Position numbers and translations under genes: made by a program
In this document: positions 1,027 through 38,203 of the stretch, piece by piece
How the letters are laid out: the number at the start of each line of letters is the position of its first letter
How positions within the stretch are numbered: the first letter of the stretch is position 1
DNA from: Streptomyces sp. R44
GTDB taxonomy: Bacteria; Actinomycetota; Actinomycetes; Streptomycetales; Streptomycetaceae
Length of the DNA: 64,000 bases
Direction: 5' to 3'
Assembly (NCBI RefSeq): GCF_041053105.1
Contig: NZ_CP163444.1
Span: 7,720,501-7,784,500, forward strand
The notes under the pieces: model-generated
The model's database searches: none
Told to the model about the DNA's origin: nothing
Seen by the model: only the letters and a program-made list of their open reading frames with translations

Positions 1027-2373
1027 TCAGTTCACCGGAGCCGCGCCGCGTCGGGCGTTCCGCCGGCTTCCGTTGATCCGGTCGTTGATCCGGTCGACAG
1101 TCCAGATGGTCCGCAGTCCTGGAGCCCCCATCATCACGGGGCGTCCGAACTTGGGCTTCTTCACCCAGAGAGCCTTCAGGTCCTCGTGCTGTTCTCCGTC
1201 CACGATGTGGTCGGCGATGAGCGAGCCGAGGTACGGCGCCTGGGCCAGGCCGTGGCCGTTGCAGGCGACCGAGTAGAAGACGTTGTCGTCGATGTTGCCG
1301 GCGAGCGGAAGCCACGACGTCGTGATCCCGATCCATCCGCCCCAGGCGCGCGCTGCCGCGACGTCGGCCAGCGCGGGGAAGCGGGTCTCGAAGCCGCGTG
1401 CGAGGTCGGCGACGACTGCCTCGTCCGGCTTCCTCAGGGGAAGCGGGTAGCTCTTCCCCCGCTGGATCCGACGCACGCCGAACACGATGGTGTTGCGCGA
1501 GGTGAGCCGGTAGTTCTCCATGAAGTTGTGCTGGGTGACCACTCCCGAACGGCTGGTCCAGCCGAGTGCTGCCAGCCGCGCGGGATCGATGGGCTCGGTC
1601 TCCACCTCGGTGACCCAGATCGGCACGGACAGTCGCTTCGGAGCGATCGCCAGCTCGCCGCCGAAGGCGTTCGTCGCGAGCACGAGCTTCCTCGCGCGCA
1701 CCTCACCACCGGGTGTCATGACGGTGATGTGATGGCCGTCCCGCGTGATGTCGGTGACCCTCGTGCGCTCGAAGACCCGGGCACGCGACGAGAGGACGGC
1801 GCGGCGGATGCCCAGGCTGAACTTGCCGGGGTTCATCATCCCGCCGACGGACTCGCGAAAACCGCCGAGGAATCCGCGGGGGATGCCCAGCTCCGCACTC
1901 GTGCCGAGCTCGACCTTCCCGCCGGCCTTCCGCAGGATCTTGGTCACGCGACGCACGCGGCCCATTTGCCCACGGGACACGGCGGCGCAGACGTTGCCGG
2001 TGGCCTCGTAGTCGCAATCGATGTCCAGCCGTTCGATCAGGTGCTCCACGAAGTGCGCGGAGTTCTCGGCGAACCGGACGATGCCGGGGAACTTCCTGGG
2101 GTAGAGGATGTTCAGGAACTGGATGTCGCCGCCCGGGGCACCTGCCAGCTGCCCGGCATTGCGCGAAGCGGAGCCGTGACCGCAGAACTCGGCTTCCAAC
2201 AGCACCACGTCCTGGCCGCGCTCGGCCAGGCGCAGCGCCGTCGACATCCCGGCCAGTCCGCCGCCCACGACCGCCACCTCACAGGTGATGTCCTCTTGCA
2301 GGGCGGGCTGGACGTTGCTGGGAGGGTCGACCCATCCACTGAAGTTGGTGTACTCGACGTTGTCCGTCTTCAT
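1027..2373 (-). CDS. FAD-dependent oxidoreductase, PuuB/DadA-like amine oxidase
   Basis: A roughly 448-residue flavoprotein. Near residues 32-50 is the Rossmann motif VAVVGGGLAGMSTALRLAE, then the ASRNAGQLAG segment typical of the glycine-oxidase/DadA/PuuB group, and near the C-terminus WGGWIGITTSWLPLAG and NGHGLAQAPYLG. Families of this type oxidise secondary amines or gamma-glutamylated diamines to aldehydes. The ATG at 2373 is preferred over the GTG one codon upstream because AAGGA lies 7 nt before it. It is the last gene of a minus-strand run that begins with PhyH at 10780. Its neighbours (aldehyde dehydrogenase, GS-like, PuuD-like) support a gamma-glutamylamine oxidase role; D-amino-acid or sarcosine-type oxidation is an alternative. 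Confidence 0.85.
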   Translation of the reverse strand: MKTDNVEYTNFSGWVDPPSNVQPALQEDITCEVAVVGGGLAGMSTALRLAERGQDVVLLEAEFCGHGSASRNAGQLAGAPGGDIQFLNILYPRKFPGIVRFAENSAHFVEHLIERLDIDCDYEATGNVCAAVSRGQMGRVRRVTKILRKAGGKVELGTSAELGIPRGFLGGFRESVGGMMNPGKFSLGIRRAVLSSRARVFERTRVTDITRDGHHITVMTPGGEVRARKLVLATNAFGGELAIAPKRLSVPIWVTEVETEPIDPARLAALGWTSRSGVVTQHNFMENYRLTSRNTIVFGVRRIQRGKSYPLPLRKPDEAVVADLARGFETRFPALADVAAARAWGGWIGITTSWLPLAGNIDDNVFYSVACNGHGLAQAPYLGSLIADHIVDGEQHEDLKALWVKKPKFGRPVMMGAPGLRTIWTVDRINDRINGSRRNARRGAAPVN

Positions 2374-2416
2374 CACACGTTCCTTGCTTCGTGTTGTCAG
2401 TGGCAGAGGTTCGACT

Positions 2417-3964
2417 TCAGGCCAGCCGGCGCTTGAGGATCTTTCCGCTGCCGGTCATCGGCAGGCTCGACACGATCTCGACGATGCGGGGGTACTTGTA
2501 GGAGGCCATCTGTTCCCTGCCCCAGGCGATGAGCTCGTCGGCGGTGAGGGAGGCGTCCTGCTCGAGGATCACGAACGCCTTGACCTCCTCACCATGGCTG
2601 TCGTGCGGGACGCCGATGACCGCCGCGAGGCTCACCGCGGGATGGGTGTGAAGCACCTCCTCGATCTCGCGGGGGTAGACGTTGAAACCGCCGCGGATGA
2701 TGAGGTCCTTCGCCCGGTCGACGATGTAGTAGAAGCCGTCCTCGTCGCGTCGCGCGAGGTCCCCGGTGCGGAACCATCCGTCGCGGATCGCCTCGGCCGT
2801 CGCCTCCGGGCGGTTGTAGTAGCCCTTCATGACGTTGTGGCCCCTGATCGCGATCTCGCCGACTTCTCCGGCCTCGGTGACCTCCGTCCAGTCCGGTCGG
2901 ATCAGCTTCAGCTGCACACCCCAGATCGGGACGCCGATCGAGCCCGGTCGGGACTCGAACCGGGGGTCGCTGAACGTGGCGACGGGCGACGTCTCGGACA
3001 GCCCGTACCCTTCGAGCACGGTGACACCGAGGCGCTGCTCGACCCGGTTGATGATCTCGACCGGCAGGGCCGCCCCACCGGAGATGCCGATCCGCAGGTT
3101 GTCGGCGATCCGGCGGACGTCGACGTCGTCGGTGAGGGCGTTGAGCAGCCCCCACCACATGGTCGGAACACCCGCGAAGAACGTGATGACCTCGCGGCTC
3201 ATGAGCTCGACCACCTCACGGGCGGCGAAGCGCGGCACGAGGTGCAAGGTCGCCGCGACCGAGAACCCCGCGTGCATCTGCACCGTCGCGCCGAAGGTGT
3301 GGAACAGGGGAAGGCACACCACGTGGCTGTCGGCGGCCGGTTCGTTGCGGAACAACCGGTTGCTGGCCAGCACGTTCATCATCGTGTTCGCGTGGGAGAG
3401 TTCCGCTCCCTTGGCCTGTCCCGTCGTTCCCGACGTGTAGAGGATGACCGCGGTGTCGGTCGGCTCCCTGACCACCGACTCGAACACGGTGCTCATACCG
3501 GCGAGTGCCTGACCGAGCGTCTCCGTACCGGCGATCGGGCTGGGAGATTCCTGGTCGGCGGTGATGACGAAGAAGTGCTCGACCGTCTTCGCCTCGAGGT
3601 AGCCGGCATGACCCTCTGCGGCCATGGCGAGCTCCGGGGTTCCTTCGAAGCAGAAGTACGCCGAGACGTCCGCGTCGCCCAGGTGGTAGGCGATCTCGCG
3701 GCCCTTGAGCAGCACGTTGAGCGGGACCACGACGGCACCCGCCTTGAGCACGCCGTAGTAGACGACGGGGAAGGAGGGCAGATTGGGGCAGCTGAGGGCG
3801 ACCTTGTCACCGGGGCGGATGCCCCGGGACACCAGCAGGTTGGCGACCTGGTTCGCCGCCGCGTCGACCTGGCGGTAGGTCAGCCGGGTCGGGCCGAGCA
3901 CGAGCGCGTCCCGGTCCGGGAACGTGCGGGCGGAGTCTTCGAGGAGGATCGAGAGGTTCAGCAA
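2417..3964 (-). CDS. AMP-dependent acyl-CoA synthetase
   Basis: 515 residues, normal for a stand-alone ANL-family ligase. It shows the P-loop-like YTSGTTGQAKGAELSH, the GYGLSETSPV core, the YFNRP-equivalent GYYNRPEATAEAI, FRTGDLARRDEDGFYYIVDR and the C-terminal catalytic lysine region MTGSGKILKRRL. The enzyme should adenylate a carboxylic acid and pass it to coenzyme A. The start is TTG at 3964 with GGAG about 9 nt upstream. It lies 44 nt upstream of the FAD oxidoreductase gene and 118 nt downstream of the aldehyde dehydrogenase. Cassette B has no second copy, so this is an A-specific addition. Chain length and substrate cannot be told from the sequence. Confidence 0.88.
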   Translation of the reverse strand: MLNLSILLEDSARTFPDRDALVLGPTRLTYRQVDAAANQVANLLVSRGIRPGDKVALSCPNLPSFPVVYYGVLKAGAVVVPLNVLLKGREIAYHLGDADVSAYFCFEGTPELAMAAEGHAGYLEAKTVEHFFVITADQESPSPIAGTETLGQALAGMSTVFESVVREPTDTAVILYTSGTTGQAKGAELSHANTMMNVLASNRLFRNEPAADSHVVCLPLFHTFGATVQMHAGFSVAATLHLVPRFAAREVVELMSREVITFFAGVPTMWWGLLNALTDDVDVRRIADNLRIGISGGAALPVEIINRVEQRLGVTVLEGYGLSETSPVATFSDPRFESRPGSIGVPIWGVQLKLIRPDWTEVTEAGEVGEIAIRGHNVMKGYYNRPEATAEAIRDGWFRTGDLARRDEDGFYYIVDRAKDLIIRGGFNVYPREIEEVLHTHPAVSLAAVIGVPHDSHGEEVKAFVILEQDASLTADELIAWGREQMASYKYPRIVEIVSSLPMTGSGKILKRRLA

Positions 3965-4081: not shown

Positions 4082-5545
4082 TCACAGCGGAAGGTCCGGC
4101 GAGTCGACTCCGACCACCCGGTCACCGCAGAACACGCGCACCGACTCGGCGGGGCCGTGACCGCCGAGGCCGGACGGTCCCCAGAAGCTCTGCGCGGAAT
4201 CGTCGCCGAGGTCGGCGAGCTTGGCGCCGTTGACCCGCACCTCGCCGGACAGCACGCGCGAGCCGACCTCGATCGCGCGTTCCGTGTCGCCGCCGAACAC
4301 ATAGGCATCGAGTCCCGACGGGTGGGCGTTCGCGATGCGCAGCGCCTCCTCGTCGGAATCGACGGCGTGCAGGGACACCACGGGACCGAACAGCTCCGCA
4401 GTGGCCTTCGCCGGGTCGGCCCCGGCGGCGACGGTCGGCGAGAGGAAGAACCCGTCGAGCTCGGGCAGCCGGGCCGGCTGGTGGACGCTCGCCCCCAGGG
4501 CGCGCAGTCCTTCGATCCGGCTCTCCAGCGTCGCGAAGTGCGGTGCGTTCGAGATCGGACCGAGCTCGGCGCTCTCGTCGAGCGAATGACCGATCACGAT
4601 CTTGGAGATGCGCTCGGTCAGCGCTTCGAGCAGCGGCCCCACCAGGCTGCTGTGGGCGAGCACCTTGCCCGGCCCCTCACACCACTGGCCGTTCAGCTTG
4701 GTCATGCCCTCGAAGATTCCGTCGGCGGCGACCTCGACGTCGGCGTCGTCCAGGACGAGCGCGGGGTTGTTGCCGCCGAGCTCCAATTGCAGGACCTTGA
4801 AGTCCTCCGCGGCGGCCCGGGCGATCGCCCGGCCGGCGGCCGGACCACCGGTGAACGACAGGACCTTGATGCGCGGGTCACCGGTCAGTGCGGCACCCAC
4901 GTCGCCCCGGCCGTGTACGAGCTGCAGCGCGCCGCTGGGCAGCCCGGCTTCGACGAAGCACTCGACGACGATCTGCGCGCTGCCCGGGGCGTGCTCCGAC
5001 GGCTTCAGGATCACCGGGCAGCCCGCCGCGACCGCGCTCACGACCTTCGCCGCGGGAATGAAGCTCGGGCCGTTCCACGGCGTGAGGATCGCGGCCGGCC
5101 CCCACGGGACCTTGTACAGGCGGACATCGCGACCGTCCGCCGCCAGAGCGCGTACCCGCGGGATGTTCAGCAGGTCCGCCGCCGTCGCCCGTATCCTGGC
5201 GGGCAGAAACGCCGCCACCTTCCGGGTGACGCCGATCGGCACACCGCTGGTCAGGGCATCCGCACGGGCGATGTCCTCGACTCGGGTCTCGATGAGCGCG
5301 GCGACGCGTTCGAGCACGTCGGCGCGCTCCTGGCGGGCCTCGTCGTCCCACCGGCCGACGCTGTACACGCGTTCGGCGTGCTGCAGCGCCCGCTCGACGT
5401 CCTCGGATCCGGTCGTGACCGTGCGGTGCACCGGTTCCCGGGTGTTGGGGTCGACGTTCCATTCGCCCTGGATCGTCTCGCAGTCGCTCCAGGCGTCCGC
5501 GATGTAGTTCACCGGCTGGGGAATCGTCGTCTCGCCGCTCGACAT
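4082..5545 (-). CDS. NAD(P)-dependent aldehyde dehydrogenase
   Basis: 487 residues, full length for the family. Visible are the PWGPAAILTPWNGP and GCPVILKPSEHAP segments, the cofactor-site FTGG, the general base glutamate in LELGGNNP and the catalytic cysteine in NGQWCEGPGK near residue 289. The C-terminus RVNGAKLADLGDDSAQ fits substrate-channel and dimer contacts. The ATG at 5545 is chosen over the GTG at 5554 because AGAGG stands upstream and the protein then matches the start of the cassette B copy (36734-38203). It probably oxidises the aldehyde made by the amine oxidase or the alcohol dehydrogenase, as PuuC does in the putrescine route. It is 27 nt downstream of the ADH gene. Confidence 0.9.
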   Translation of the reverse strand: MSSGETTIPQPVNYIADAWSDCETIQGEWNVDPNTREPVHRTVTTGSEDVERALQHAERVYSVGRWDDEARQERADVLERVAALIETRVEDIARADALTSGVPIGVTRKVAAFLPARIRATAADLLNIPRVRALAADGRDVRLYKVPWGPAAILTPWNGPSFIPAAKVVSAVAAGCPVILKPSEHAPGSAQIVVECFVEAGLPSGALQLVHGRGDVGAALTGDPRIKVLSFTGGPAAGRAIARAAAEDFKVLQLELGGNNPALVLDDADVEVAADGIFEGMTKLNGQWCEGPGKVLAHSSLVGPLLEALTERISKIVIGHSLDESAELGPISNAPHFATLESRIEGLRALGASVHQPARLPELDGFFLSPTVAAGADPAKATAELFGPVVSLHAVDSDEEALRIANAHPSGLDAYVFGGDTERAIEVGSRVLSGEVRVNGAKLADLGDDSAQSFWGPSGLGGHGPAESVRVFCGDRVVGVDSPDLPL

Positions 5546-5572: not shown

Positions 5573-6670
5573 TCAGGCCTTGAGGTCGACGACGACGCGC
5601 GTCACGTCACCGCTGCGCATCGCCTTGAAGCCCTCGTTGATCTCGCCGAACGGGATGACCTGCGTGACCATCTCGTCGAGCAACAGCCGCCCCTGCTGGT
5701 AGAGGCGCGCGAGCTGGACGATGTCCTGACGCACCTGCCCCGATCCCATGTACGAGCCGATGAGGCGCTTCTCGCCGAAGAAGAAGTCCGACGCGGGCAC
5801 CTTGAGTTCGGTGCCCTCCGGGGCGATGCCCACCAGGCACGCGGTGCCGGTCGCCCGCACCACCGAGAGTGCCGTGGCCGCGGTGCGCGCCGAGCCGACG
5901 GCCTCGAACGAATAGTCGACGCCGTCGCCCAGCAGCTTCCGAACCTCCGCGGCGACGTCCTCGGCACCCCCGTTCACGACATGCGTCGCGCCGTAGCCGC
6001 GCGCGGCCTCAAGTCGCGCCTCGTCCAGGTCGATCGCGACGACGGCCGAGGCCCCCGCCAGTCTGGCCCCCTGGATGATGGCCGACCCGACGCCACCGCA
6101 GCCGATCACGGCGACCGTGCTTCCCGGACGCACCTGGGCGCCGCGGAAGACGGCGCCGACGCCGGTGATGACACAGCACGCCAGGAGACACCCCACGTGC
6201 AGCGGCACCGCGTCGTCCAGCTTCACCAGCGCGTTCTCCCGCATGAGGGTGTGCCGCGAGAACGCGCCGACGTCGCCGAGCCGCTCGACCGGCTCGCCGT
6301 TCGTCAGCTGGAACGCGGGACGCGGGCGACGACGGACCTCCGCCACGCGCTGACACTGCGTCGAACGGCCGGCCTCGCAGTTGACGCAGCGGCCGCACGA
6401 CGGCGTCAGCGCCCCGACCACGCGGTCGCCGACCCGCAGTCCGGTCACCGCGGAGCCGGTCGCCTCGACGACTCCGGCCACCTCGTGACCCACCACCACC
6501 GGCAGGTCGGTCGGCACCGTGCCGGTCATGTAGTGCAGGTCGCTGTGGCACAGGCCCACGTGCGAGACCGCGACGCGCACCTCGTCGGGCTCGGGATCGT
6601 CGACCTGGATCGCGGTCATTTCGAGCGGTTCGTTCACCGCGGTGAGCACCGCGGCCTCTGTGTCGATCAC
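5573..6670 (-). CDS. Zinc-dependent alcohol dehydrogenase (MDR family)
   Basis: 365 residues. Catalytic zinc ligands are visible at C41 (GLCHSD) and H62/E63 (GHE), and the four structural-zinc cysteines at C92, C95, C98 and C106 are intact. The nucleotide-binding motif is VIGCGGVGSAIIQGARLAGA. It starts at GTG 6670 with GGAG upstream. It resembles class III-type alcohol dehydrogenases that convert primary alcohols to aldehydes with NAD. Paired with the aldehyde dehydrogenase 27 nt downstream, it could process an amino alcohol or a 3-hydroxyacyl product. The cassette B copy (35607-36737) is a close relative with the same order beside its aldehyde dehydrogenase. Confidence 0.88.
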   Translation of the reverse strand: MIDTEAAVLTAVNEPLEMTAIQVDDPEPDEVRVAVSHVGLCHSDLHYMTGTVPTDLPVVVGHEVAGVVEATGSAVTGLRVGDRVVGALTPSCGRCVNCEAGRSTQCQRVAEVRRRPRPAFQLTNGEPVERLGDVGAFSRHTLMRENALVKLDDAVPLHVGCLLACCVITGVGAVFRGAQVRPGSTVAVIGCGGVGSAIIQGARLAGASAVVAIDLDEARLEAARGYGATHVVNGGAEDVAAEVRKLLGDGVDYSFEAVGSARTAATALSVVRATGTACLVGIAPEGTELKVPASDFFFGEKRLIGSYMGSGQVRQDIVQLARLYQQGRLLLDEMVTQVIPFGEINEGFKAMRSGDVTRVVVDLKA

Positions 6671-6724: not shown

Positions 6725-9148
6725 CTACTTGCCAGTGCCCTTCGCGGTCCAGAAGCCTTCGATGCCGGCCCTGAACACGCCGCTCTCCCAGGTCTCGCGC
6801 GCGGCGGCGTCCTCTCGGGCGAAGGCCTGCTCGATCTCGTCGAGCCGCGGCCGTAGCAGCGCGAGATGAAGCGCCGTCGTGTTGTTCTCCGGCGTCCACT
6901 CGACGACCAGGTCGACCGCGCGGTCGACCAGCTCGTCGGGCGCGACGATCTCGTCCAGGAGGCCGATCCGCAGGGCATCCTCGGCGCCGATCCGCGGCGA
7001 GCCGAGGACCATGCGCATCGCGTGGTTCCGGACAAGCCTGGTCAGCAGCATGCTGGACGCGTTCGAGATCGTGATGCCCCGGCCGTTCTCCGGCTGGTAG
7101 TACTCCGCCTTCGGACTTCCGATCCGTGCGTCGCAGCAGAGGGTGATCTCCGAGGCACCGCCCACCGCGAGACCGTTCACGGCCGCGATGACGGGGACCC
7201 GTGTCTCCACGATGGCGCGGGTGATGTCGTGAAAGGTCTCGAACGCCTCCCGCATCTCCTCGTACGAGGTGGGCGGCGCCTGGAGGTCCTCGCCGGCGGA
7301 GAACGCCCGGCCCTCACCCGTGAGCACGATTCCGCGCACGTTGTCGCCGGCCCCGAACTTCCTTATGACATAGGCGAGTCGCCTTCGCGTGACGACGTCC
7401 ATGGCGTTCAGCTTCTCCGGACGGCGCAGGGTCAGTACCGCCACGCCCCGTACGACGTCGACGTCGAGGACGTCCGTGGACGGGGGAGAGGACGGGACGG
7501 TGGGTGCGCCCGCAGAGCCGCGCCGGGCGCCCAGGTCGAAGGTGACACCGGGCTCGGCCGCGGCGCGGGCCTTGAGGGCTGGCTTGGACACGCGCTCGGA
7601 CGGTGTCCGCGGGAAGTCGACGACGAACTCGACGTAGCGCGGCACTTTGAAACGGGCGAGCTGGCGGCCGGCCCGGTCGACGATCCGTGCGGCGGTCGTA
7701 CGGTCGGCCGGCACCCCGGCGGCGAGCTGGACGAAGGCCTTGACCTCTTCACCGAAGGTCTCGTCGGGTTCGGCGACGACGGCGGCGGCGATGACCTCCT
7801 CGTCACGTTCGATGGCGGCCTCGACCTCGGCGCTCGCGATGTTCTCGCCGCCCCGGCGCACCATGTCCTTGATCCGACCGACGAGCTGGACGCCGCCGTC
7901 CGGCCGGCGGACGACGACATCGCCGGTGTGCAGCCAGCCGTCCCGCAGCACCTTGGCGGTGTCCTCCGGACGGTTCCAGTAGCCGCGCATCAGCGGCCTG
8001 CCCGAGACGATCAGCTCACCGGGCTCGCCGTCGGGCAGGTCGTCGCCCTGCGGATCGACCACCCGGACCTGCTTCGTCGGCACCGGAAGCCCCAGGCTCC
8101 CGCTCCCCACGGCATTCTCGTCAGAGACGGAACTGAACAGGTCGACGCCGGACTCGGTCATGCCGTAGATCTCCCGCCACGGCGCTCCCCAGCGTTCCTC
8201 CAGCTGCGCGTGGATCCCTACCGGAATGCCCGAACAGAGCACCAGACGCAGGTGGTTGTCCAGGTCGTCGGGGCTCGCCGGCTGCTTGAACAGCAGCGTC
8301 GGCATGGACCCGAGCACGTAGAAGAAAGTGGCACGGTGGCGGCGGACATCGGGGAAGAAGCCCGACGCGGAGAACCGGGGCAACACGACCAGCGGGGCCC
8401 CGATCGTCAGGGCGAGCGCGGTGTTCCACTGCGGATCCATGTAGGAGAACGGCTGCGCGGTGAGCAGGACGTCGTCGGACCCGAGGCCGGTCAGCGCGGC
8501 GCAGGTCCAGCCCAGCCGCACCCAGTAGTCGTGGGTGAGCATGCATGCCTTGGGGAAGCCGGTGGTGCCCGACGTGTACTGCAGGTTCGCCAAGGTCTCG
8601 GCGGCGGCGCTCACCGCCGGAGCGGTCGCCGGGAACGGCGCGGACCCGTCCGCTGCGACGTCGACGATGCGCAGGTCAGCCAACTCGGCTTCGGCGTCGA
8701 TGACTTCCTTCAGGAGACCTGCCCGCTCGTGGTCGGTGAACACGACCCGGGCTCCCGAATCCCGCAGGAGGAAGGTGAGATCAGCCCGCTTGTACGAGGA
8801 GTTGACCGGCACTGCCACCGCCCCGGCCTTCAGCGCGGACAGCCACACGACCGGCCAGTGCACGATGTTCGGGAGCATGATCGCGACACGGTCGCCGGGC
8901 TGGATGCCGTCCACCTCGATCAGCCGATGTGCCAGCCTGGAGGTCCAGTCGTCGATCTCGGCAAACGTCCAGGATCCGTCGCCGAAGCGCAGGAACTCCC
9001 GATCGGGTGATCGCTGCGCACGCTCGGCCAGCAACCCGGTCAGCGTCGCGATGGACGGGTCCTCTCCCATCTGCTGGGGCCCTACGGCCGGCTGCGGACG
9101 GCGAGAGGCCGCATCTGCCTCTCGCTGAGGCGTTTCCTTCACGACCAC
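6725..9148 (-). CDS. Fused acyl-CoA synthetase / enoyl-CoA hydratase
   Basis: 807 residues in two enzymes. Residues about 30-525 are an ANL ligase (YTSGTTGFPKACMLTHDYW, EIYGMTESGVD, GYWNRPEDTAKV, PRTPSERVSKPALKAR). After a linker, residues about 565-805 are a crotonase-fold domain (VLTLRRPEKLNAMDV, GRAFSAGEDLQAPP, INGLAVGGASEITLCCDARIG). The ligase half resembles crotonobetaine/carnitine-type ligases. One protein could therefore activate an acid and hydrate or isomerise the enoyl-CoA. The gene overlaps the membrane-protein gene: GTG at 9148 or, two codons on, GTG at 9142 overlapping its TGA as GTGA. A second such fusion stands at 33163-35610. The crotonase catalytic glutamates were not verified residue by residue. 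Confidence 0.87.
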   Translation of the reverse strand: MVVKETPQREADAASRRPQPAVGPQQMGEDPSIATLTGLLAERAQRSPDREFLRFGDGSWTFAEIDDWTSRLAHRLIEVDGIQPGDRVAIMLPNIVHWPVVWLSALKAGAVAVPVNSSYKRADLTFLLRDSGARVVFTDHERAGLLKEVIDAEAELADLRIVDVAADGSAPFPATAPAVSAAAETLANLQYTSGTTGFPKACMLTHDYWVRLGWTCAALTGLGSDDVLLTAQPFSYMDPQWNTALALTIGAPLVVLPRFSASGFFPDVRRHRATFFYVLGSMPTLLFKQPASPDDLDNHLRLVLCSGIPVGIHAQLEERWGAPWREIYGMTESGVDLFSSVSDENAVGSGSLGLPVPTKQVRVVDPQGDDLPDGEPGELIVSGRPLMRGYWNRPEDTAKVLRDGWLHTGDVVVRRPDGGVQLVGRIKDMVRRGGENIASAEVEAAIERDEEVIAAAVVAEPDETFGEEVKAFVQLAAGVPADRTTAARIVDRAGRQLARFKVPRYVEFVVDFPRTPSERVSKPALKARAAAEPGVTFDLGARRGSAGAPTVPSSPPSTDVLDVDVVRGVAVLTLRRPEKLNAMDVVTRRRLAYVIRKFGAGDNVRGIVLTGEGRAFSAGEDLQAPPTSYEEMREAFETFHDITRAIVETRVPVIAAVNGLAVGGASEITLCCDARIGSPKAEYYQPENGRGITISNASSMLLTRLVRNHAMRMVLGSPRIGAEDALRIGLLDEIVAPDELVDRAVDLVVEWTPENNTTALHLALLRPRLDEIEQAFAREDAAARETWESGVFRAGIEGFWTAKGTGK

Positions 9149-10780: not shown

Positions 10781-10862
10781 GGCAATTCCTTCCAGTCAGG
10801 ACCGGCGACCACATCACGCCTCCGCAATGCGGTGAGGTCATGCTGCTGCATCATGGTCGCTC

Positions 10863-11696: not shown

Positions 11697-11704
11697 TCGC
11701 CTCG

Positions 11705-23680: not shown

Positions 23681-23884
23681 GCCGTATCCGCAGAACTCCG
23701 ATTCCAGCAGGACGGCGTCGACGCCGTGCTCCGCGAGGCGGAGCACGGTCGCCATGCCCGCGAGTCCGCCGCCGATGACCGCGACAGAGCAGGTGAGGCT
23801 CTCCGTCAGCGACGGGCGGACGTCGGTGGGCGGATCGACCCATCCGGTGAACGTGGTGTAGGTCGTGTTCGCGGTGGCGCTCAT
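23672..23884 (-). pseudogene. Truncated FAD oxidoreductase, N-terminal 70 residues
   Basis: It starts TYTTFTGWVDPPTDVRPSL and has the Rossmann motif VAVIGGGLAGMATVLRLAE, matching residues 1-70 of the intact enzyme at 1027-2373, then stops two codons after CGYG. Its ATG overlaps the membrane-protein stop as ATGA. Only the dinucleotide-binding start survives, so cassette B lacks this oxidase; the amine oxidase at 27269 may replace it. Confidence 0.8.
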
Positions 23885-30382: not shown

Positions 30383-31042
30383 GTGACGGAAACCCCTACG
30401 GCCCCGAGGAGTCTCGTGGACCAGCGTGCGCCGGTCCGGATAGAGATCGACGACGATGCCACGCCCGTCGTCCGGCTGCTCGGCCGGACCCTGCGCGACG
30501 CGGCCCGGACCGGTCACGCCCCCGAAGTACTCGGCCGAGGCACAGGGACGGTCGCCGTCCGCTCGCACGACACCCCGCAGGCCGCCACCGTCACGCTGCA
30601 CGGCGGCGTCGTCACCGTGACCGGCGGCGTCTTCGCGCCGACCGACGCCACGCTGGTCGTCGACCTCGAATCCCGTTTCGCGCCCACACAGGACCCGGAG
30701 GATGACGCGGAACTGGCCGGCGGGATGCTCCGCGCCCTACGGCCCCCGTTGCCTCCGTGGCGCGAGGCCGCCGAGCACTTCTGGGAGGTGACCCGCGGCA
30801 TCCACGGCATCCCCGACGTCCTCGTCGCGGTGGCGGGGGAACCGGAAGGCCCCCAGGAGGCCAGATTCGGTGCGGGCCCCAGCACGTACCGCATGGTCGG
30901 CACGCCCGAGGCGCTGGCAGGCGTGTTCACCGGCGCCGACTACCTCCTCACCTCCCTGGAGTCCGGCCTGCGGGTCCAGGGGACGCTCTCGCAGTTGTCG
31001 GTCATGACGGCTGCCTCGTGGAAGGTTCGATTCGATGTCTGA
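30383..31042 (+). CDS. Small GS-coupled protein, possible SCP2-like fold (cassette B)
   Basis: 219 residues from GTG 30383 with AAAGG upstream. It shares GRTLRDAARTGH, VRSHDTPQAATV, AEHFWEVTR..HGIPDVLVAV and GTLSQLSVMTAASWKVRFDV with the protein at 13838-14503. It overlaps the GS-like gene by 8 nt, exactly as in cassette A. Function unknown; lipid- or CoA-ester binding by an SCP2-like fold is a guess from the C-terminal block. Confidence 0.75.
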   Translation: MTETPTAPRSLVDQRAPVRIEIDDDATPVVRLLGRTLRDAARTGHAPEVLGRGTGTVAVRSHDTPQAATVTLHGGVVTVTGGVFAPTDATLVVDLESRFAPTQDPEDDAELAGGMLRALRPPLPPWREAAEHFWEVTRGIHGIPDVLVAVAGEPEGPQEARFGAGPSTYRMVGTPEALAGVFTGADYLLTSLESGLRVQGTLSQLSVMTAASWKVRFDV

Positions 31043-32408
31043 ACTCACCCGGTCGGCATCCACCAGGTCCGCTCGGACAGCACCCACGAGAGCCATCCGC
31101 TTGGAGGCCACCGGCCACGACGGGAGCTTCCTGGGGAAGACCATCACGCCGGCGAAGTTCGCGTCCGGCAAGGAGTCGGGCTTCGCCTTCGCCGACATCC
31201 TGTTCGCGATCGACCTGGGTAACGCGTTCGTGTACGGCGACGCGTTCCCGGACTGGCGCGGCAACCTCTACGACATCTCGATGATCCCCGACATGGCCAC
31301 ACTGGTGCAGTGGAAGCCCGGCCTCGAAGCCGTCATCGGTGACTACTGGCTACGGGACGGGCGGCCGGTGCCGATCTGTCCGCGGAACATGGTGCGCAGG
31401 CTGGTCGAGCGCCTCCAGGCCCTCGGCTACAACGCCAAGGTCGCGGTGGAGATCGAAACGACGCTGTTCGCGGAGTCCGTCCAGGAGGCGCGGGCCCGCG
31501 GGTACCGCGATCTCACCCCGCTCGGTGGAGACACCGGCGCCACGTACCACCTGGCGAGGTCGAAGGACTGGGTCGACTACATGGACGCGGTCACCGACCG
31601 GCTCGACGAGCTCGGCATCACCTGGGAGGCGTGGACCGACGAGGCCGCCCCCGGCCAGACCGAGTTGAACCTCGCGCCCAGTGATCCGGTGTCGCTCGGG
31701 GACTCCTGGGTGCGTACCAAGCAGGTGATGCGCGAAGTCGCGTTCGAGCAGGGCCGGTCGGTGACCTTCATGGCCAAGCCGACCGCCGGATTCGGACAGG
31801 GCGCGCACATCAACCTCTCGCTGCACCGGGACGGAGAGAACCAGTTCTTCGCACCCGAGGGACCGTCCGAGGTGATGCTCCAGGCCGTCGGTGGGCTGAT
31901 GGCCACGATGGCGGGGAACACCCTGCTGGCGCTGCCGCAGATTACCTCGTACCGGCGCCTGGTCGACATCAGCGGCCCACCGACCACCATCAGCTGGGGC
32001 GTCAACAACAAGACCGCGGCGGTGCGGGCCATCGTCGGGCACCCCACGTACTCGCGGCTCGAGTACCGGCTTCCCGGCTCGGACGTCAACCCGTACTACG
32101 CGCTGGCCGGTGTGCTGGCCGGGGTCGTGGCCGGCATCGAACGGCGGATGCAGGCACCGCCGCAGGTCGACGACATGGCGTGGAGCCTACCGGACGACAG
32201 CGGGGTCGAGCGGATCCCGGACACGATCACGAAGGCCATCGCCGCGCTGGAAGGCGACGAGATACTTCGCGAGTACCTGGGCGAGGAGTTCGTCGACTTC
32301 TGGGTGGCGTCGCGCCGGTGGGAATGGATGGAGTTCCACACCAAGGGTGGTGACCCGTACGCCGAGCTCTCCGCGTGGGAGACCCGTCGCTACTTCGAGT
32401 TCCCGTGA
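31035..32408 (+). CDS. Glutamine synthetase-like enzyme, probable gamma-glutamylamine synthetase (cassette B)
   Basis: 457 residues. It keeps AVEIETTLFAES, PGQTELNLAPSDP, TFMAKPTAGFGQGAHINLSL, ISWGVNNKTAAVRA and SRLEYRLPGSDVNPYYALA, the ATP, metal and glutamate sites. It is close to the enzyme at 12475-13845 along its whole length. The gene has the same overlaps as its partner: 8 nt with the small protein and GTGA with the PuuD-like gene. It likely attaches glutamate to an amine; GlnA-type ammonia assimilation is unlikely given the context. Confidence 0.87.
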   Translation: MSELTRSASTRSARTAPTRAIRLEATGHDGSFLGKTITPAKFASGKESGFAFADILFAIDLGNAFVYGDAFPDWRGNLYDISMIPDMATLVQWKPGLEAVIGDYWLRDGRPVPICPRNMVRRLVERLQALGYNAKVAVEIETTLFAESVQEARARGYRDLTPLGGDTGATYHLARSKDWVDYMDAVTDRLDELGITWEAWTDEAAPGQTELNLAPSDPVSLGDSWVRTKQVMREVAFEQGRSVTFMAKPTAGFGQGAHINLSLHRDGENQFFAPEGPSEVMLQAVGGLMATMAGNTLLALPQITSYRRLVDISGPPTTISWGVNNKTAAVRAIVGHPTYSRLEYRLPGSDVNPYYALAGVLAGVVAGIERRMQAPPQVDDMAWSLPDDSGVERIPDTITKAIAALEGDEILREYLGEEFVDFWVASRRWEWMEFHTKGGDPYAELSAWETRRYFEFP

Positions 32409-33181
32409 GCGGCAAGCCACTGGTCGGTATCACCGGCCGCCGGTTCCAGCTGGGCCTGATCGCAGGAACGGACGACCGTCACGCCACGGCGTGCGTGGAC
32501 TCGTTCATGTCCGCCTTCGCGACGCGGGTGGCGCAGGCCGGCGGGGTTCCCGTGCTCCTGCCCTACGACGCTGATCCGCTGGACGTCTGCGCGTGGGTGT
32601 CCGGGGTGGTGATCACCGGCGGGCAGGACGTGCACCCGGCCCGGTGGGGCGGCGACACCTCCGTGGTCCGCGATGTCGACCCTCGGCTCGATCCCCATGC
32701 GCACGATCCGGAACGCGACGACTACGAGTTCACCCTGGCCCGCGCCGCCATCGACCGCGGCATCCCCGTGCTGGGGGTGTGCCGAGGGATGCAGCTGCTC
32801 AACGTGGCGCTGGGCGGAACGCTCGTCGCGGACCTGCCGCCCGGCCCCGTGCCGCACTTGTCGCCGCTGGCTGCGCCCACCGACGGTGACGCCGAGCACC
32901 TCGTGACCTTCGAGCCCGGCTCGACGGCCGCGCGGCTCTTCGGCGACAGCGCCGTCACCAACTCGTGGCACCACCAGGCCGTCGACCGGTGCGGCGCGGG
33001 GCTCGTCGTCACGGGCCGCACGCCCGACGGGGTTGCGGAGGCCGTGGAGGCGCCCGGCGCGCCGATCCTCGGGGTGCAGTGGCACCCCGAGTGGATGGAA
33101 CGGGACGACCCGGCCATGGCCTGGATCGTCGACGAATCGAGACAACGACAGGAGGCCGGAGCATGCCGGCTGACCCGATAA
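32405..33181 (+). CDS. Gamma-glutamyl hydrolase, PuuD-like (cassette B)
   Basis: 258 residues from GTG 32405, overlapping the synthetase stop. Nucleophile in VLGVCRGMQLLNVALGG, His-Glu pair in GVQWHPEWM, and the same GGDTSVVRDVDPR block as the cassette A enzyme. It should split the gamma-glutamyl amide after oxidation of the amine end. Its 3' end overlaps the ligase-hydratase gene by 19 nt. Confidence 0.87.
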   Translation: MSGKPLVGITGRRFQLGLIAGTDDRHATACVDSFMSAFATRVAQAGGVPVLLPYDADPLDVCAWVSGVVITGGQDVHPARWGGDTSVVRDVDPRLDPHAHDPERDDYEFTLARAAIDRGIPVLGVCRGMQLLNVALGGTLVADLPPGPVPHLSPLAAPTDGDAEHLVTFEPGSTAARLFGDSAVTNSWHHQAVDRCGAGLVVTGRTPDGVAEAVEAPGAPILGVQWHPEWMERDDPAMAWIVDESRQRQEAGACRLTR

Positions 33182-35610
33182 CCGCGACCACGCCCAGGGA
33201 CGGAACACCGGGGCGTCCCGCCGTCGCCCTCGACCTGATGGGGGAGACGCCCCGGGTACGTACCGTCACCGGCCTGCTGGCGGATGGCGCCGCCCGCACT
33301 CCCGGCGCCGAGCTGCTGAGGTTCGGCGACGCCTCGTGGACCTACGAGCAGGCTGACGCATCGTCGTCGCGGCTGGCACACCGCCTCATCGAGGCCGACG
33401 GCGTGGCGCCGGGCGACCGCGTCGCGATCATGCTGCCGAACGTCCCGCAGTGGCCGCTCACCTGGTTCGCGGTGCTCAAGGCCGGCGCCGTCGCCGTGCC
33501 CGTCAACTCGGCGTACCGAGCGGCCGACCTGGCGTTCGTGCTGCGCGACTGCGGCGCGAAAGTGATCGTCACCGACACCGAGCACCTCCCGCTGGTGCGC
33601 GAGGTGGCATCCGGCGACGACGCCCTCGCGGGCCTCCGCATCGTCGACGTCGCCGACATCCCCGACACGGGTATCCCGGCCACCGCCCCGGATGTCCCGA
33701 TCACCCCGGACACGCTGGCCAACCTGCAGTACACCTCGGGCACCACCGGATTCCCGAAGGCGTGCATGCTGACCCACGACTACTGGACCCGCATCGCTCG
33801 GGACTGCGCCGCGGCCGCCGGCCTCGGCGGCGACGACGTGCTGCTCACGGCGCAGCCCTTCTCGTACATGGACCCGCAGTGGAACACGGTCCTCGCCCTG
33901 ACCGCCGGCGCCCCGCTGGTGGTGCTGCCGCGGTTCTCCGCGTCGGGGTTCATGGCCGACGTACGGCGCCACCGCGTGACCTTCTGCTACGTCCTCGGAG
34001 CGATGCCCACCCTGCTGTTCAAGCAGCCGCCCACCGCCGACGACCGGGACAACCACCTGCGCGCGGTGTTCTGCTCCGCGATCCCCGCGGCGCTGCACGC
34101 CCAGCTGGAGGACCGCTGGGGCGCACCGTGGCGAGAGCTCTACGGCATGACCGAGAGCGGGATCGACCTGATCAGCCCACTCGCCGATCCCGCGGTCGTC
34201 GGGAGCGGCGGCATCGGGCGGCCCGTGCCCACCAAGCGCGTCAGGATCGTGGACGCCGACGGCGCCGAGGTCCCCGCTGGCACACCCGGCGAACTGACCG
34301 TGTCCGGAGCGCCGATGATGCTCGGCTACTGGAACCGTCCCGAGGAGACCGCGCGGGCGCTGCGGGACGGATGGCTGCGCACCGGCGATCTCGCGGTCGC
34401 CGACGACCGGGGCGAGATCCGCCTGGTGGGCCGCATCAAGGACATGGTGCGGCGCGGCGGCGAGAACGTCGCCAGCGCCGAGGTGGAGGCAGCGCTCGAA
34501 ACCGACGACCGCGTCGTCGCGGCCGCGGTCGTCGCCGAGCCCGACGAGGTGCTCGGGGAGGAGCTCAAGGCATTCGTCCAGCTCGCGGCGGGCGGCACCG
34601 GCGACCGGGCGACGGCCGAGGCCATCATCGCCCGGGTCGCGGAGCGGCTCGCGCGGTTCAAAGTGCCGCGCTACGTCGAATTCGTCGCGGACTTCCCCCG
34701 GACCCCGTCGGAGCGGGTGTCCAAGCCCGCGCTCAGGGCCCGGGCGGCCGAAGCCCCCGGCACCACCTTCGACCTGCGCGACCGGACCTCATCGACCTCC
34801 GCGGCGTCGTCGGACGCGGCCCTGTCGGACACGGCGGCCGAACACGTGCTCGTCGACGTGATCCGCGAGGTCGCCGTGATCACCCTGCGGCGCCCGTCGA
34901 AGCTCAACGCGCTCACCGTCGGAATGCGGCTGCGCCTCGCCGCGCTCATCCGCGAACACGGCACCGGTGAGCGGGCCCGGGGAATCGTGATCACGGGCAC
35001 GGGCCGCGCGTTCAGCGCGGGCGAGGACCTCAGCGCTCCGCCGACCACGTTCGCCGAGATGCGCGAGACCTTCGAGACCTTCCACGACGTCACCCGGGCG
35101 GTGATCGAGACCCGGGTCCCCGTGGTCGCGGCGATCAACGGGATCGCGGTGGGAGGCGCCTCGGAGATCACGCTGTGCTGCGACGCGCGGCTCGGCACGC
35201 CGCAGACCACGTTCTTCCAGCCGGAGAATGCCCGCGGCCTCACGATCTCCAACGCGTCCAGCGTGCTCCTCACCCGCATCGTCCGCAATCACGCGATGCG
35301 GATCGTCCTGGGCTCGGAGCGCATCGGCGCCGAGGAAGCACTGCGGATCGGTCTGATCGATCAGATCGTCGAACAGGACGACCTGCTGGACCGCGCGATC
35401 GACCTCGTCCACGCCTGGACACCGGAGGGCGGCAACAACACCGCCCTGCACCTGTCGCTGCTGCGTCCCTCGTCCGAAGAGATCGAACGCGCCTTCGTGC
35501 TGGAGGACGCCGCGGCCGACGCGTCGTGGAACAGCGGCGCGCTGACCGCGGGCATCGCGGGCTTCTGGAACGCGAAGAAGCCCGCCACCACGACCGGAGA
35601 GAACGAATGA
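33163..35610 (+). CDS. Fused acyl-CoA synthetase / enoyl-CoA hydratase (cassette B)
   Basis: 815 residues from ATG 33163 (GGAGG upstream). The ligase half has YTSGTTGFPKACMLTHDYW, ELYGMTESGID, GYWNRPEETARAL and TPSERVSKPALRAR. A Ser/Ala-rich linker follows near residues 540-560, then a crotonase domain with VITLRRPSKLNALTV, RAFSAGEDLSAPP and INGIAVGGASEITLCCDARLG. It is the full-length relative of the protein at 6725-9148. It is coupled to the ADH gene by ATGA. Confidence 0.87.
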   Translation: MPADPITATTPRDGTPGRPAVALDLMGETPRVRTVTGLLADGAARTPGAELLRFGDASWTYEQADASSSRLAHRLIEADGVAPGDRVAIMLPNVPQWPLTWFAVLKAGAVAVPVNSAYRAADLAFVLRDCGAKVIVTDTEHLPLVREVASGDDALAGLRIVDVADIPDTGIPATAPDVPITPDTLANLQYTSGTTGFPKACMLTHDYWTRIARDCAAAAGLGGDDVLLTAQPFSYMDPQWNTVLALTAGAPLVVLPRFSASGFMADVRRHRVTFCYVLGAMPTLLFKQPPTADDRDNHLRAVFCSAIPAALHAQLEDRWGAPWRELYGMTESGIDLISPLADPAVVGSGGIGRPVPTKRVRIVDADGAEVPAGTPGELTVSGAPMMLGYWNRPEETARALRDGWLRTGDLAVADDRGEIRLVGRIKDMVRRGGENVASAEVEAALETDDRVVAAAVVAEPDEVLGEELKAFVQLAAGGTGDRATAEAIIARVAERLARFKVPRYVEFVADFPRTPSERVSKPALRARAAEAPGTTFDLRDRTSSTSAASSDAALSDTAAEHVLVDVIREVAVITLRRPSKLNALTVGMRLRLAALIREHGTGERARGIVITGTGRAFSAGEDLSAPPTTFAEMRETFETFHDVTRAVIETRVPVVAAINGIAVGGASEITLCCDARLGTPQTTFFQPENARGLTISNASSVLLTRIVRNHAMRIVLGSERIGAEEALRIGLIDQIVEQDDLLDRAIDLVHAWTPEGGNNTALHLSLLRPSSEEIERAFVLEDAAADASWNSGALTAGIAGFWNAKKPATTTGENE

Positions 35611-36737
35611 TCACCACCCGCGCGGCCGTGCTCACGAAGGTGGGCGAACCCCTGCGCCTGACCTACATCCACGTCGACGAGCCCGAGCCGCACGAGGTGC
35701 GGATCGCCGTCACACACGTCGGGCTGTGCCACAGCGACCTGCACTACGTTACCGGCGCCGTCTCCACCGACCTGCCGGTGGTGGTCGGTCACGAGGTGGC
35801 CGGCGTCGTCGAATCCGTCGGCCCGGCCGTCACGGACCTGCGCCCCGGCGACCACGTCACCGGCGCGCTCACCCCGTCGTGCGGCCAGTGCGCGAACTGC
35901 AACGCGGCCCGTTCGACACAGTGCCGGCGGCTCGACGAGATCCGGCGCCGCCCGCGGCCCGCGTACACCCTGCCCGACGGGACAGCGGTCGCCCGACTCG
36001 GCGACCTGGGCGCGTTCTCCGAGCACATGCTGCTGCGCGCGAACGCCGCCGTGAAGCTGCCCGACGGCGTGTCCACCCAGGTCGGCTGCCTGCTGTCGTG
36101 CTGCGTCGTCACCGGCGTCGGTGCCGTGTTCCGCGGTGCGCGGGTGCGGCCCGGCTCCACCGTGGCCGTGATCGGCTGCGGAGGCGTCGGCTCGGCCATC
36201 ATCCAGGGCGCGCGGCTCGCGGGCGCGTCCGCGATCGTCGCGATCGACGTCGACGAGCAGCGGCTGCGAGCCGCCCGCGGCTACGGCGCGACCCACACCC
36301 TGAACGGCGGCGTCGACGACGTGCCCGCTGCGGTGCGCGCCCTGCTGGGCGACGGCGTCGACTACTCCTTCGAGGCCGTCGGGTCCGCCCGCACCGCGGC
36401 AACCGCCCTCGACGTGGTGCGCCCCACCGGCACGGCCTGCATCGTCGGCATCGCTCCCGAAGGCACCGAGCTGACCCTGCCCGCGTCCGACTTCTTCTTC
36501 GGCGAGAAGCGCCTGATCGGCTCGTACATGGGGTCGGGGCAGGCGCGGGAGGACATCGCCCAGTTCGCCCGGCTGTACCAGCAGGGCCGGCTGCTGCTCG
36601 ACGAGATGGTCAGCGACGTCATCGACTTCGACCGGATCAACGAGGGCTTCGAGGCGATGAAGTCCGGCGAGGTGACCCGCATCGTCCTCGCCATGCCGAT
36701 CCGTTCCGGCAACCCCGCCGCGGAGGAGACCCGATGA
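35607..36737 (+). CDS. Zinc-dependent alcohol dehydrogenase (cassette B)
   Basis: 376 residues. Zinc ligands in GLCHSD and GHE, four structural cysteines in PSCGQCANCNAARSTQC, and nucleotide motif VIGCGGVGSAIIQGARLAGA. Near-collinear with the protein at 5573-6670 but with a longer C-terminal tail. The gene is coupled by ATGA to both neighbours. It likely interconverts an alcohol and the aldehyde used by the next enzyme. Confidence 0.88.
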   Translation: MITTRAAVLTKVGEPLRLTYIHVDEPEPHEVRIAVTHVGLCHSDLHYVTGAVSTDLPVVVGHEVAGVVESVGPAVTDLRPGDHVTGALTPSCGQCANCNAARSTQCRRLDEIRRRPRPAYTLPDGTAVARLGDLGAFSEHMLLRANAAVKLPDGVSTQVGCLLSCCVVTGVGAVFRGARVRPGSTVAVIGCGGVGSAIIQGARLAGASAIVAIDVDEQRLRAARGYGATHTLNGGVDDVPAAVRALLGDGVDYSFEAVGSARTAATALDVVRPTGTACIVGIAPEGTELTLPASDFFFGEKRLIGSYMGSGQAREDIAQFARLYQQGRLLLDEMVSDVIDFDRINEGFEAMKSGEVTRIVLAMPIRSGNPAAEETR

Positions 36738-38203
36738 AGACCACGACACCAACAACGTCTCTTGCGCAGCCGGTGAGCTACATCGCCGGTGAGTGGGTGC
36801 GATGCCAAGAGCTCGACGCGTGGAACGTCGACCCGAACACGGGGGAGCCGGTCCACCGCACGGTGACCACATCGCCCACCGACCTGGAGCGAGCGCTGCA
36901 GCACGCGCAGCGCGCCTACGATGCGCTGGACTGGGCAGGTGACGACTTCCGGCTCATGCGGGCCGAGGCGCTCGAACGGGCCGCGGCGAACGTCGAGGAG
37001 CGGCTCGAGGAAATCGCCCGCACCGACGCGATCACGAGCGGCACGGCGATCACCGCCACCCGCAAACTCGCCGCGTTCCTCCCGGCCCGGATCCGGGCGG
37101 CCGCCGACGAGGCCCGTGGCATCCCCCGCGTCACCGCGCTCGCCGCCGGCGGGCGCGACGTCCGGCTGCACCGAGTGCCCTGGGGACCCGCCGCGATCCT
37201 CACGCCGTGGAACGGCCCCAGCTTCATCCCGGCGGCGAAGGTCGCCAGCGCGGTGGCTTCGGGCTGCCCGGTGCTGCTCAAGCCGTCCGAGCACGCCCCC
37301 GCCAGCGCGCAGGTGATCGTCGAGTGCTTCGTCGACGCCGGCCTGCCCGAGGGCGCGCTGCAGCTCGTCCACGGCACGGGCGACATCGGCGCCGCGCTCA
37401 CGGCCGACCGCCGGGTGAAGGTGGTGTCCTTCACCGGCGGCCCGGGCGCCGGGCGGGCCATCGCCCGCGCCGCCGCCGAGGACTTCAAGGTCCTCCAGCT
37501 CGAACTCGGTGGCAACAACCCCGTGCTCGTGCTCGACGACGCCGACCTCGACGTGACCGCCGACGGCATCCTGACCGGCATGACGAACCTGAACGGCCAG
37601 TGGTGCGAGGGGCCGGGCAAGGTCCTGGCACCGCACCGGCTGGTGCAGCCCCTGCGGGAGGCCCTCGCGGAGCGCATCGCGCGGCTGCGGATCGGGCACT
37701 CGCTCGACGAGGAGTCCGACATCGGACCCATCGCCAACGAACCGCACCACCGGAACCTGCTCCAGCGCATCGAGGGCCTGCGCGGGCTCGGTGCCGAGAT
37801 CGACCAGCCCGGGGAGCTGCCCGGCCTGGCGGGCTTCTTCCTGTCTCCCACGCTCGCCACCGGGTCCGACCCGGAACGTACGACCGCCGAGCTGTTCGGG
37901 CCCATCGTCTCCTTGCACGGCGTGGACTCGGACGAGGACGCGCTGCGCGCCGCCAACGCGCACCCGTCGGGCCTGGACGCCTACGTGTTCGGCACCGACA
38001 CCGACCGCGCGATCGCGATCGGTGCCCGGATCGTGTCCGGCGAGGTGCGGGTCAACGGCGCCAAGCTCGCCGATCTCGGCGACGACTCCGCCCAGAGTTT
38101 CTGGGGCCCGTCCGGCATCGGCGGCCACGGGCCCGCGGAGTCGGTGCGGGTGTTCTGCGGAGACCGGGTCGTCGGGGTCGATTCGCCGGATCTGCCCTTG
38201 TGA
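36734..38203 (+). CDS. NAD(P)-dependent aldehyde dehydrogenase (cassette B)
   Basis: 489 residues. General base E257 in LELGGNNP and catalytic C291 in NGQWCEGPGK, with FTGG and the SEHAP segment as in the copy at 4082-5545. It is the last gene of the plus-strand operon that starts at 24869 or 28903. A 9-bp hairpin follows and separates it from the convergent regulator gene. Confidence 0.9.
   Translation: MKTTTPTTSLAQPVSYIAGEWVRCQELDAWNVDPNTGEPVHRTVTTSPTDLERALQHAQRAYDALDWAGDDFRLMRAEALERAAANVEERLEEIARTDAITSGTAITATRKLAAFLPARIRAAADEARGIPRVTALAAGGRDVRLHRVPWGPAAILTPWNGPSFIPAAKVASAVASGCPVLLKPSEHAPASAQVIVECFVDAGLPEGALQLVHGTGDIGAALTADRRVKVVSFTGGPGAGRAIARAAAEDFKVLQLELGGNNPVLVLDDADLDVTADGILTGMTNLNGQWCEGPGKVLAPHRLVQPLREALAERIARLRIGHSLDEESDIGPIANEPHHRNLLQRIEGLRGLGAEIDQPGELPGLAGFFLSPTLATGSDPERTTAELFGPIVSLHGVDSDEDALRAANAHPSGLDAYVFGTDTDRAIAIGARIVSGEVRVNGAKLADLGDDSAQSFWGPSGIGGHGPAESVRVFCGDRVVGVDSPDLPL

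Follow-up and report, generated by a model that had tools for sequence, protein, structure and literature searches.

Two related versions of a putative gamma-glutamylamide amine-catabolic cassette with a tandem SCP2-like protein lie side by side in Streptomyces sp. R44

Streptomyces sp. R44, whose genome is a single contig of 8.89 Mb, carries in the stretch analysed here (64,000 nucleotides, positions 7720501-7784500; hereafter the window) two similar gene sets around a gene for a glutamine synthetase (GS)-like protein, cassettes A and B, which raises the question how two such sets came to lie next to each other and what they do. GS-like enzymes form a growing group of amine-tagging enzymes, many of them still without an assigned substrate. 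Judged by their sequences, A and B are two versions of one catabolic system that are related but were inherited separately. We slightly favour (rough probability 0.55) a system in which an amine is gamma-glutamylated, cleaved by a monooxygenase and a hydrolase and oxidised to an acid, glutamate is set free, and the acid is activated with CoA and (de)hydrated.

Genes were called with our own codon-based script, 30 proteins of the window were compared with Pfam and 10 with NCBIfam, and the proteins of A and B were paired by blastp. A small protein, the GS, a PuuD-like hydrolase, a fused ligase-hydratase (68% identical), a zinc alcohol dehydrogenase (ADH), an aldehyde dehydrogenase (ALDH), a membrane protein and part of a symporter occur on both sides, the core genes running on the minus strand in A and on the plus strand in B, as an earlier note on this DNA had described. 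The FAD oxidoreductase, listed there as a pair as well, is represented in B only by a stump of 70 amino acids that runs into a C-terminal fragment of the symporter, and the two remnants together are likely a deletion scar in cassette B. The note had missed a flavin monooxygenase of the Baeyer-Villiger monooxygenase (BVMO) type and an alpha/beta-hydrolase on each side (A 14675-17509; B 24869-27272), as well as a pair of metallo-beta-lactamase-fold proteins, 80% identical, of which the A-side partner is encoded just left of the window. No B partner was found by blastp for the PhyH, separate AMP ligase, 4HBT, MFS and TetR proteins of A, and no A partner for the APC permease, the monoamine oxidase (MAO)-like oxidase and the PucR-like regulator of B. 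The two versions thus have different regulators, as had been noted: TetR in A and a protein that is PucR-like by eye in B.

Relatives of both GS proteins were searched in a collection of species genomes with two short peptide patterns, and the best 80 of the 93 relatives comprise 71 close actinobacterial loci (L007-L076 and L078), spanning at least 15 genera, and nine distant ones (L077 and L079-L086). The close loci were sorted by hand into groups A (31 loci), I (18 loci, mostly Nocardioides and Amycolatopsis), B (13 loci) and V (nine loci); trees (FastTree, unrooted) put L049, L051 and L063 in groups other than the hand sorting did.

The same genes, adjacent and in opposite orientation, could point to a local inverted duplication that later diverged, as the earlier note had pictured it. 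The gene overlaps that it had taken as shared by the two copies are indeed present in both (8 nt between the small protein and GS genes, and 4 nt, GTGA, between the GS and PuuD-like genes), but they are no mark of the A/B pair, since by our gene calls they occur family-wide, in 45 of 67 adjacent small protein/GS pairs and 41 of 58 GS/PuuD pairs, respectively. The genes of B are 80-94% identical to those of Amycolatopsis, Nocardia and Rhodococcus loci (L053, L055-L057, L078), versus 51-77% to those of A. In the GS tree (70 rows) the GS of A is found among Streptomyces sequences (100/99 with L007), and that of B pairs with Streptomyces bikiniensis (100/97) and then with Amycolatopsis, Rhodococcus and Nocardia, with strongly supported branches between the two; the A-type GS shares 100% identity with one in Streptomyces diastatochromogenes ATCC 21481. 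The paired genes are therefore not each other's closest relatives, each having nearer orthologues in other genomes, which is an outcome that the earlier note had named as refuting its view. For the core genes we reject a local duplication, and it is a highly improbable origin of the locus.

The modules of the cassette do not all appear to have travelled together. Two trees unite group I with B as an exact split, that of the GS (support 1.0) and that of the small protein (0.80). In the ligase tree, 15 of the 17 group I rows fall with five A loci and away from B (0.956). Group I also leans to A in the trees of ADH (three A loci, support 0.887) and ALDH (five A loci, support 0.686); the trees of the membrane protein (0.33) and the FAD oxidase (0.62) do not decide its position, and the PuuD tree does not resolve it. 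As the placement differs between trees, the small protein/GS pair and at least the ligase seem to differ partly in history.

Within the genus the small protein was found in seven of 295 genomes, with two copies only in this one, and two strong cassette copies were present in eight of 50 genomes already known to have one (starting from 61 loci). Amycolatopsis sp. NBRC 101858 has a B-type cassette next to an A-type one, with equal orientation and a distance of about 13 kb; in Rhodococcus koreensis the distance is 4.5 Mb, and in the other six genomes the two copies are on different contigs. Pieces of an A-type cassette were further found beside the B-type one in L064 and L065 (the latter cut by the locus end). 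That two cassettes adjoin in more than one arrangement hints that the A-type and B-type versions complement each other.

Co-occurrence elsewhere, which the earlier note had proposed to check, was clear: the gene set is found together in many actinobacteria, and the cassette system is real and widespread. A seven-gene kernel (small protein, GS, PuuD-like hydrolase, ADH, ALDH, BVMO-type monooxygenase and alpha/beta-hydrolase) was called in 56 of the 71 close loci (own gene calls, flanks of at most 10 kb per side); nine of the 15 loci with a miss involve contig or flank ends, or a gene that is present by tblastn though uncalled or frame-broken. The individual counts are 68 for the small protein, 70 for GS, 68 for PuuD, 68 for ADH, 60 for ALDH (plus nine for a second ALDH cluster), 62 for any BVMO and 65 for any alpha/beta-hydrolase, followed by TetR (57), FAD oxidase (50), membrane protein (43), 4HBT (29), MFS (19) and APC (17). 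The ligase-hydratase was found fused in 30 loci, with a ligase without hydratase domain in 31 and a separate hydratase in 29. It is dispensable in the wider family, as nine loci have the small protein, GS, ADH, PuuD and an ALDH without it.

The small protein resembles SCP2 proteins. In an AlphaFold2 (AF2) model of the A protein (pLDDT 90.2), residues 25-123 and 126-221 each match SCP2 proteins in fold, so that the protein models as two SCP2-like domains in tandem. Pfam SCP2 was matched by 18 of 50 family members at E<=5 (best 4.2e-6), and an SCP2-like open reading frame lies directly upstream of GS in all nine distant loci as well. In four of these, from gammaproteobacterial metagenome-assembled genomes (L077, L079, L084 and L086), the SCP2-like/GS pair stands beside ribB-like and glycolate oxidase subunit-like genes, named by eye. 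A third, more distant SCP2-like/GS cassette lacking the ligase-hydratase fusion was seen in L111-L113, with PhyH-type dioxygenases in two of the three and a class III aminotransferase-like protein in one. Twelve of the 14 phylum-wide matches to the small-protein profile were weak (E 1.5e-8 to 6e-4), lacked a GS match within the 2.2-3.3 kb of sequence retrieved and are probably generic SCP2-type proteins.

The catalytic fold of GS is present in both cassettes (Table 1). At the position of the ammonia-flap glutamate all 70 family members have Gly, versus Glu in the top-scoring GS of the host genome (L001). Loss of the flap residue and of Asp50' is described for glutamyl-organic-amine synthetases (GoaS) in the accessible text of PMC11335346.

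The monooxygenases fall into types. The first BVMO fingerprint, [A/G]GxWxxxx[F/Y]P[G/M]xxxD (as given in the accessible part of PMC4498894), is intact in both monooxygenases of the window. The second, FxGxxxHxxxW[P/D] (as given in the accessible parts of PMC4498894 and PMC6058054), has Ser for His in 26 of 26 BVMO1 (A-type) sequences and is canonical in 33 of 33 BVMO2 (B-type) and five of five BVMO3 sequences. BVMO1 was called in 24 of the 31 group A loci and BVMO2 in none, the remaining seven being uncalled (three with BVMO1 pieces by tblastn); BVMO2 was found in 17 of 18 group I and 13 of 13 group B loci, and the nine group V loci have BVMO3 (five), BVMO2 (three) or no BVMO (one). The monooxygenase type follows the GS group.

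Among the 61 loci with these genes, ligase and hydratase are fused in 30 and separate but adjacent in 29, spaced by -4 to +10 nt, and the remaining two are cut by the locus end. Both hydratase glutamates that align with those of solved enoyl-CoA hydratases, which we take to be catalytic, are present in 61 of 62 sequences; only L021, which is frame-broken, deviates. The ATP loop of the ligase is kept, and the site of the usual C-terminal lysine motif reads ERVSK or a close variant (62 rows), ERVSK being a departure from that motif. An acyl-CoA dehydrogenase cluster (one, named by eye) was found in only five of the 71 loci; together with the fusion or adjacency of ligase and hydratase this suggests that the acid used is probably already alpha,beta-unsaturated or beta-substituted, with a dehydrogenase possibly encoded elsewhere in the genome.

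From the computed gene content, linkage, predicted folds, catalytic positions and gene histories we infer all reactions of the pathway, their order and a hydrophobic substrate. The GS-like enzyme would make the gamma-glutamyl amide of an amine, which its SCP2-like partner, encoded by the overlapping gene, would probably present to it; that the amine is hydrophobic or membrane-dissolved is suggested by the SCP2-like nature of this partner. The monooxygenase and the alpha/beta-hydrolase would together break the carbon chain at a carbonyl, the ketone becoming an ester and the ester an alcohol and an acid. The alcohol would be oxidised to an acid by ADH and ALDH, the PuuD-like hydrolase would give glutamate back, and the ligase-hydratase (types A, I and B) may form the CoA ester, followed by (de)hydration. 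The earlier note had likewise proposed a variant amine pathway with CoA activation, and the joint presence of ligase and hydratase agrees with it; its model did not include the monooxygenase, the hydrolase or the SCP2-like nature of the small protein.

A bolder form, in which the SCP2-like/GS pair is a new two-protein class of gamma-glutamylamide synthetase for lipid-like amines that feeds a route to an alpha,beta-unsaturated acid, we consider unlikely. The carrier would lift an amphiphilic amine from the membrane and hand it over to GS, chain cleavage by the BVMO would yield the alpha,beta-unsaturated acid, and the ligase-hydratase would activate and hydrate this without an acyl-CoA dehydrogenase. 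Speculatively, such chemistry would suit a keto-sphingoid base on paper, as sphingosine cleavage would give trans-2-hexadecenoate. Our literature search, to which most subscription papers were outside reach so that absence from it is weak evidence, showed among the matches listed no published SCP2 partner of GS, no glutamylation combined with a BVMO or a CoA ligase/hydratase, and no relevant publication on sphingoid or alkylamine routes.

Several observations weigh against the proposed pathway. The A small protein scores 12.6 of the 21.3 bits of the Pfam SCP2 gathering score, and SCP2-like folds need not bind lipid. The gammaproteobacterial SCP2-like/GS pairs have no other full kernel gene nearby and may serve another role. 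An acidic residue precedes the flap position by one in nine of the 70 family members, and according to the accessible part of PMC8998196 the flap Glu is changed in GlnA3 and kept in GlnA2, both polyamine enzymes; because GlnA2 keeps it, its loss is no strict mark of amine ligases. The A monooxygenase, having no fingerprint His, may not do Baeyer-Villiger chemistry, the link between GS and BVMO type rests on few independent evolutionary events, six of the 71 loci (L015, L017, L029, L065, L067 and L068) miss a kernel part with no technical reason found, and neighbouring genes need not belong to one pathway.

These points leave room for an ordinary pathway for a small amine or amino alcohol, in the style of GlnA4 or isopropylamine, in which the SCP2-like protein has no more than a structural or regulatory part and the monooxygenase serves a side branch. 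It would run from a gamma-glutamyl amino alcohol via the aldehyde to a gamma-glutamyl amino acid, which is then split into amino acid and glutamate, a logic that the isopropylamine route follows. The simplest locus, L068, keeps little beyond the SCP2-like protein, GS, ADH, PuuD and ALDH, and the logic proposed for SCO1611-1615 of Streptomyces coelicolor in the accessible part of PMC6529630 likewise has a dehydrogenase, an ALDH and a gamma-glutamyl hydrolase beside a GS. We nevertheless regard this as somewhat unlikely, as the BVMO and the alpha/beta-hydrolase were called in most of the loci and the genome already has a GlnA4-like locus elsewhere (GS-like, ALDH and, by eye, a divergent GntR-like gene and a permease start), whose GS is only 32-33% identical to those of A and B; this would make a further plain ethanolamine route superfluous, with a small amine still conceivable.

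Glutamylation could also be the point in itself, as a detoxification of membrane-active amines with the other enzymes disposing of the product. The nearby MFS and APC transporters would suit that, and GlnA2 of S. coelicolor is reported, in the part of the source available, to aid survival at toxic polyamine levels, but the presence of ligase-hydratase, ADH and ALDH suggests that the amine serves as a carbon source, which makes detoxification distinctly unlikely.

Table 1. Positions in the window of the features of cassettes A and B (percentages, blastp identity between A and B proteins; clusters, number of the 71 close loci)
Feature	Position	Strand	Remarks
A sodium:solute symporter, C-terminal part	31..726	+	Gene begins left of window; 69% to B
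A FAD oxidoreductase, DAO family	1027..2373	-	Pfam DAO 1.7e-52; cluster 50/71
A separate acyl-CoA ligase	2417..3964	-	Pfam AMP-binding 2.5e-89; cluster 11/71
A ALDH	4082..5545	-	Pfam Aldedh 1.4e-100; 74% to B
A zinc ADH, liver-ADH-like	5573..6670	-	77% to B
A acyl-CoA ligase fused to enoyl-CoA hydratase	6725..9070	-	Pfam AMP-binding and ECH_1
A 7-helix membrane protein	9139..9855	-	AF2 pLDDT 89.6; cluster 43/71
PhyH-type 2-oxoglutarate dioxygenase, A only	9881..10780	-	Pfam PhyH 2.1e-32; cluster 6/71
A TetR regulator	11024..11578	+	Opposite strand; Pfam TetR_N; cluster 57/71
A PuuD-like gamma-glutamyl amide hydrolase	11705..12478	-	Pfam Peptidase_C26 2e-51; 71% to B
A GS-like gamma-glutamylamide synthetase (predicted)	12475..13845	-	Pfam Gln-synt_C 8.1e-79; flap Glu to Gly
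A tandem SCP2-like protein	13838..14503	-	Gene overlaps GS; AF2 pLDDT 90.2
A HSL-type alpha/beta-hydrolase	14675..15646	+	Pfam Abhydrolase_3 7.4e-72
A BVMO-family monooxygenase	15845..17509	+	Second fingerprint His to Ser; phenylacetone monooxygenase, near full-length, 4.6e-157
A 4HBT thioesterase	17506..17886	+	Pfam 4HBT 6.6e-7; cluster 29/71
A MFS transporter	18133..19602	+	Pfam MFS_1; cluster 19/71
B-side metallo-beta-lactamase-fold protein	21957..22847	-	Pfam Lactamase_B; 80% partner left of window
B symporter, C-terminal fragment	22962..23621	-	Pfam SSF positions 270-405 of 406
B FAD oxidoreductase, N-terminal stump (70 aa)	23672..23884	-	70% to A over 56 aa
B membrane protein	23881..24585	-	51% to A
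B BVMO-type monooxygenase	24869..26380	+	Canonical fingerprint
B alpha/beta-hydrolase	26373..27272	+	Pfam Abhydrolase_1 1.7e-27
B MAO-like flavin amine oxidase	27269..28669	+	Pfam Amino_oxidase 1.9e-68
B APC-family permease	28903..30330	+	Pfam AA_permease
B tandem SCP2-like protein	30416..31042	+	60% to A
B GS-like gamma-glutamylamide synthetase (predicted)	31035..32408	+	Pfam Gln-synt_C 1e-80; 66% to A
B PuuD-like hydrolase	32405..33181	+	Pfam Peptidase_C26 3.1e-52
B ligase-hydratase fusion	33163..35610	+	
B zinc ADH	35607..36737	+	
B ALDH	36773..38203	+	
B PucR-like regulator	38256..39431	-	Named by eye; T. tyrosinosolvens gene in same place annotated helix-turn-helix

The FAD oxidoreductase of A matched NCBIfam TIGR03329 and AmaA, both below cut-off, and belongs to a broad family shared with aminophosphonate and pipecolate oxidases. 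A Foldseek search with the A membrane protein gave 603 matches at E<=10, none at <=0.001, those listed being generic 7-helix receptors. Left of the window, beside cassette A (coordinates of locus L087), lie an amine oxidase of the AmOx2 cluster (21/71 loci; L087:1988-3343), the second metallo-beta-lactamase-fold gene (L087:3452-4342) and a gene (L087:5919-6728) whose protein is 35-43% identical to a reductase, imine-reductase-like by eye, encoded directly behind ALDH in six loci of the B type. Immediately to the right of cassette B is a partial open reading frame that resembles a transposase fragment by eye (40092-40535), and further on a sugar ABC transporter-like set with a LacI-type regulator, also named by eye, with no link to the cassettes (48041-55718). 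An Rfam scan of the window gave no matches at gathering score. A scan of 10780-15900 gave one promoter-like site, against a mean of 0.2 (sd 0.6) in shuffles, and two overlapping terminator-like sites within the GS gene, against a mean of 1.2 (sd 0.9) in shuffles; these results were not used.

No earlier description of the cassette system was found in the literature search, within its reach given above. In the Puu putrescine pathway of Escherichia coli the amine is glutamylated, oxidised and released by a PuuD-type hydrolase. Cassette A shares with it the DAO-family oxidase, which is broken in B, and the cassettes add ADH, BVMO and ligase-hydratase. Puu membership was rejected, as the NCBIfam models were not reached: PuuA (GGputSyn) at 170 (A) and 184 (B) of 650 bits and, for A only, PuuD at 82.6 of 266 bits and PuuC below cut-off. 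Degradation of cyclohexylamine or ketones uses an amine oxidase, a BVMO and a lactone hydrolase and is not known to include a glutamylation step. Cassette B likewise has a BVMO, a hydrolase and a MAO-like oxidase side by side; the best solved relative of the latter is a monoamine oxidase, and cyclohexylamine oxidase is among its solved relatives.

With the GlnA4 ethanolamine pathway of S. coelicolor (SCO1610-1615, as far as described in the accessible part of PMC6529630) the cassettes share the logic of GS-like protein, dehydrogenase, ALDH and gamma-glutamyl hydrolase. They have a zinc ADH instead of a short-chain dehydrogenase and other regulators (TetR, PucR-like), and they add the SCP2-like protein, BVMO, alpha/beta-hydrolase and ligase-hydratase; membership was rejected on the zinc ADH, the different regulators and the genome's own GlnA4-like locus. 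The conserved BVMO lineage with Ser for His, tied to one GS group, offers a natural experiment on the role of that histidine. The cassette GS resembles the GoaS enzymes (PuuA, AtdA1, the isopropylamine enzyme, NpaA1 and GlnA3; accessible text of PMC11335346) in GS fold, changed ammonia site and adjacent amine-oxidising genes. It does not reach the NCBIfam thresholds for gamma-glutamylputrescine synthetase and type III GS, and differs from GoaS in forming a lineage of its own with an SCP2-like partner. The whole can be seen as a variant of gamma-glutamylamide amine catabolism, of which the SCP2-like/GS pair is the most interesting part: the link of a GS lineage with an SCP2-like carrier restricts the substrate guess to hydrophobic amines and offers a testable partner.

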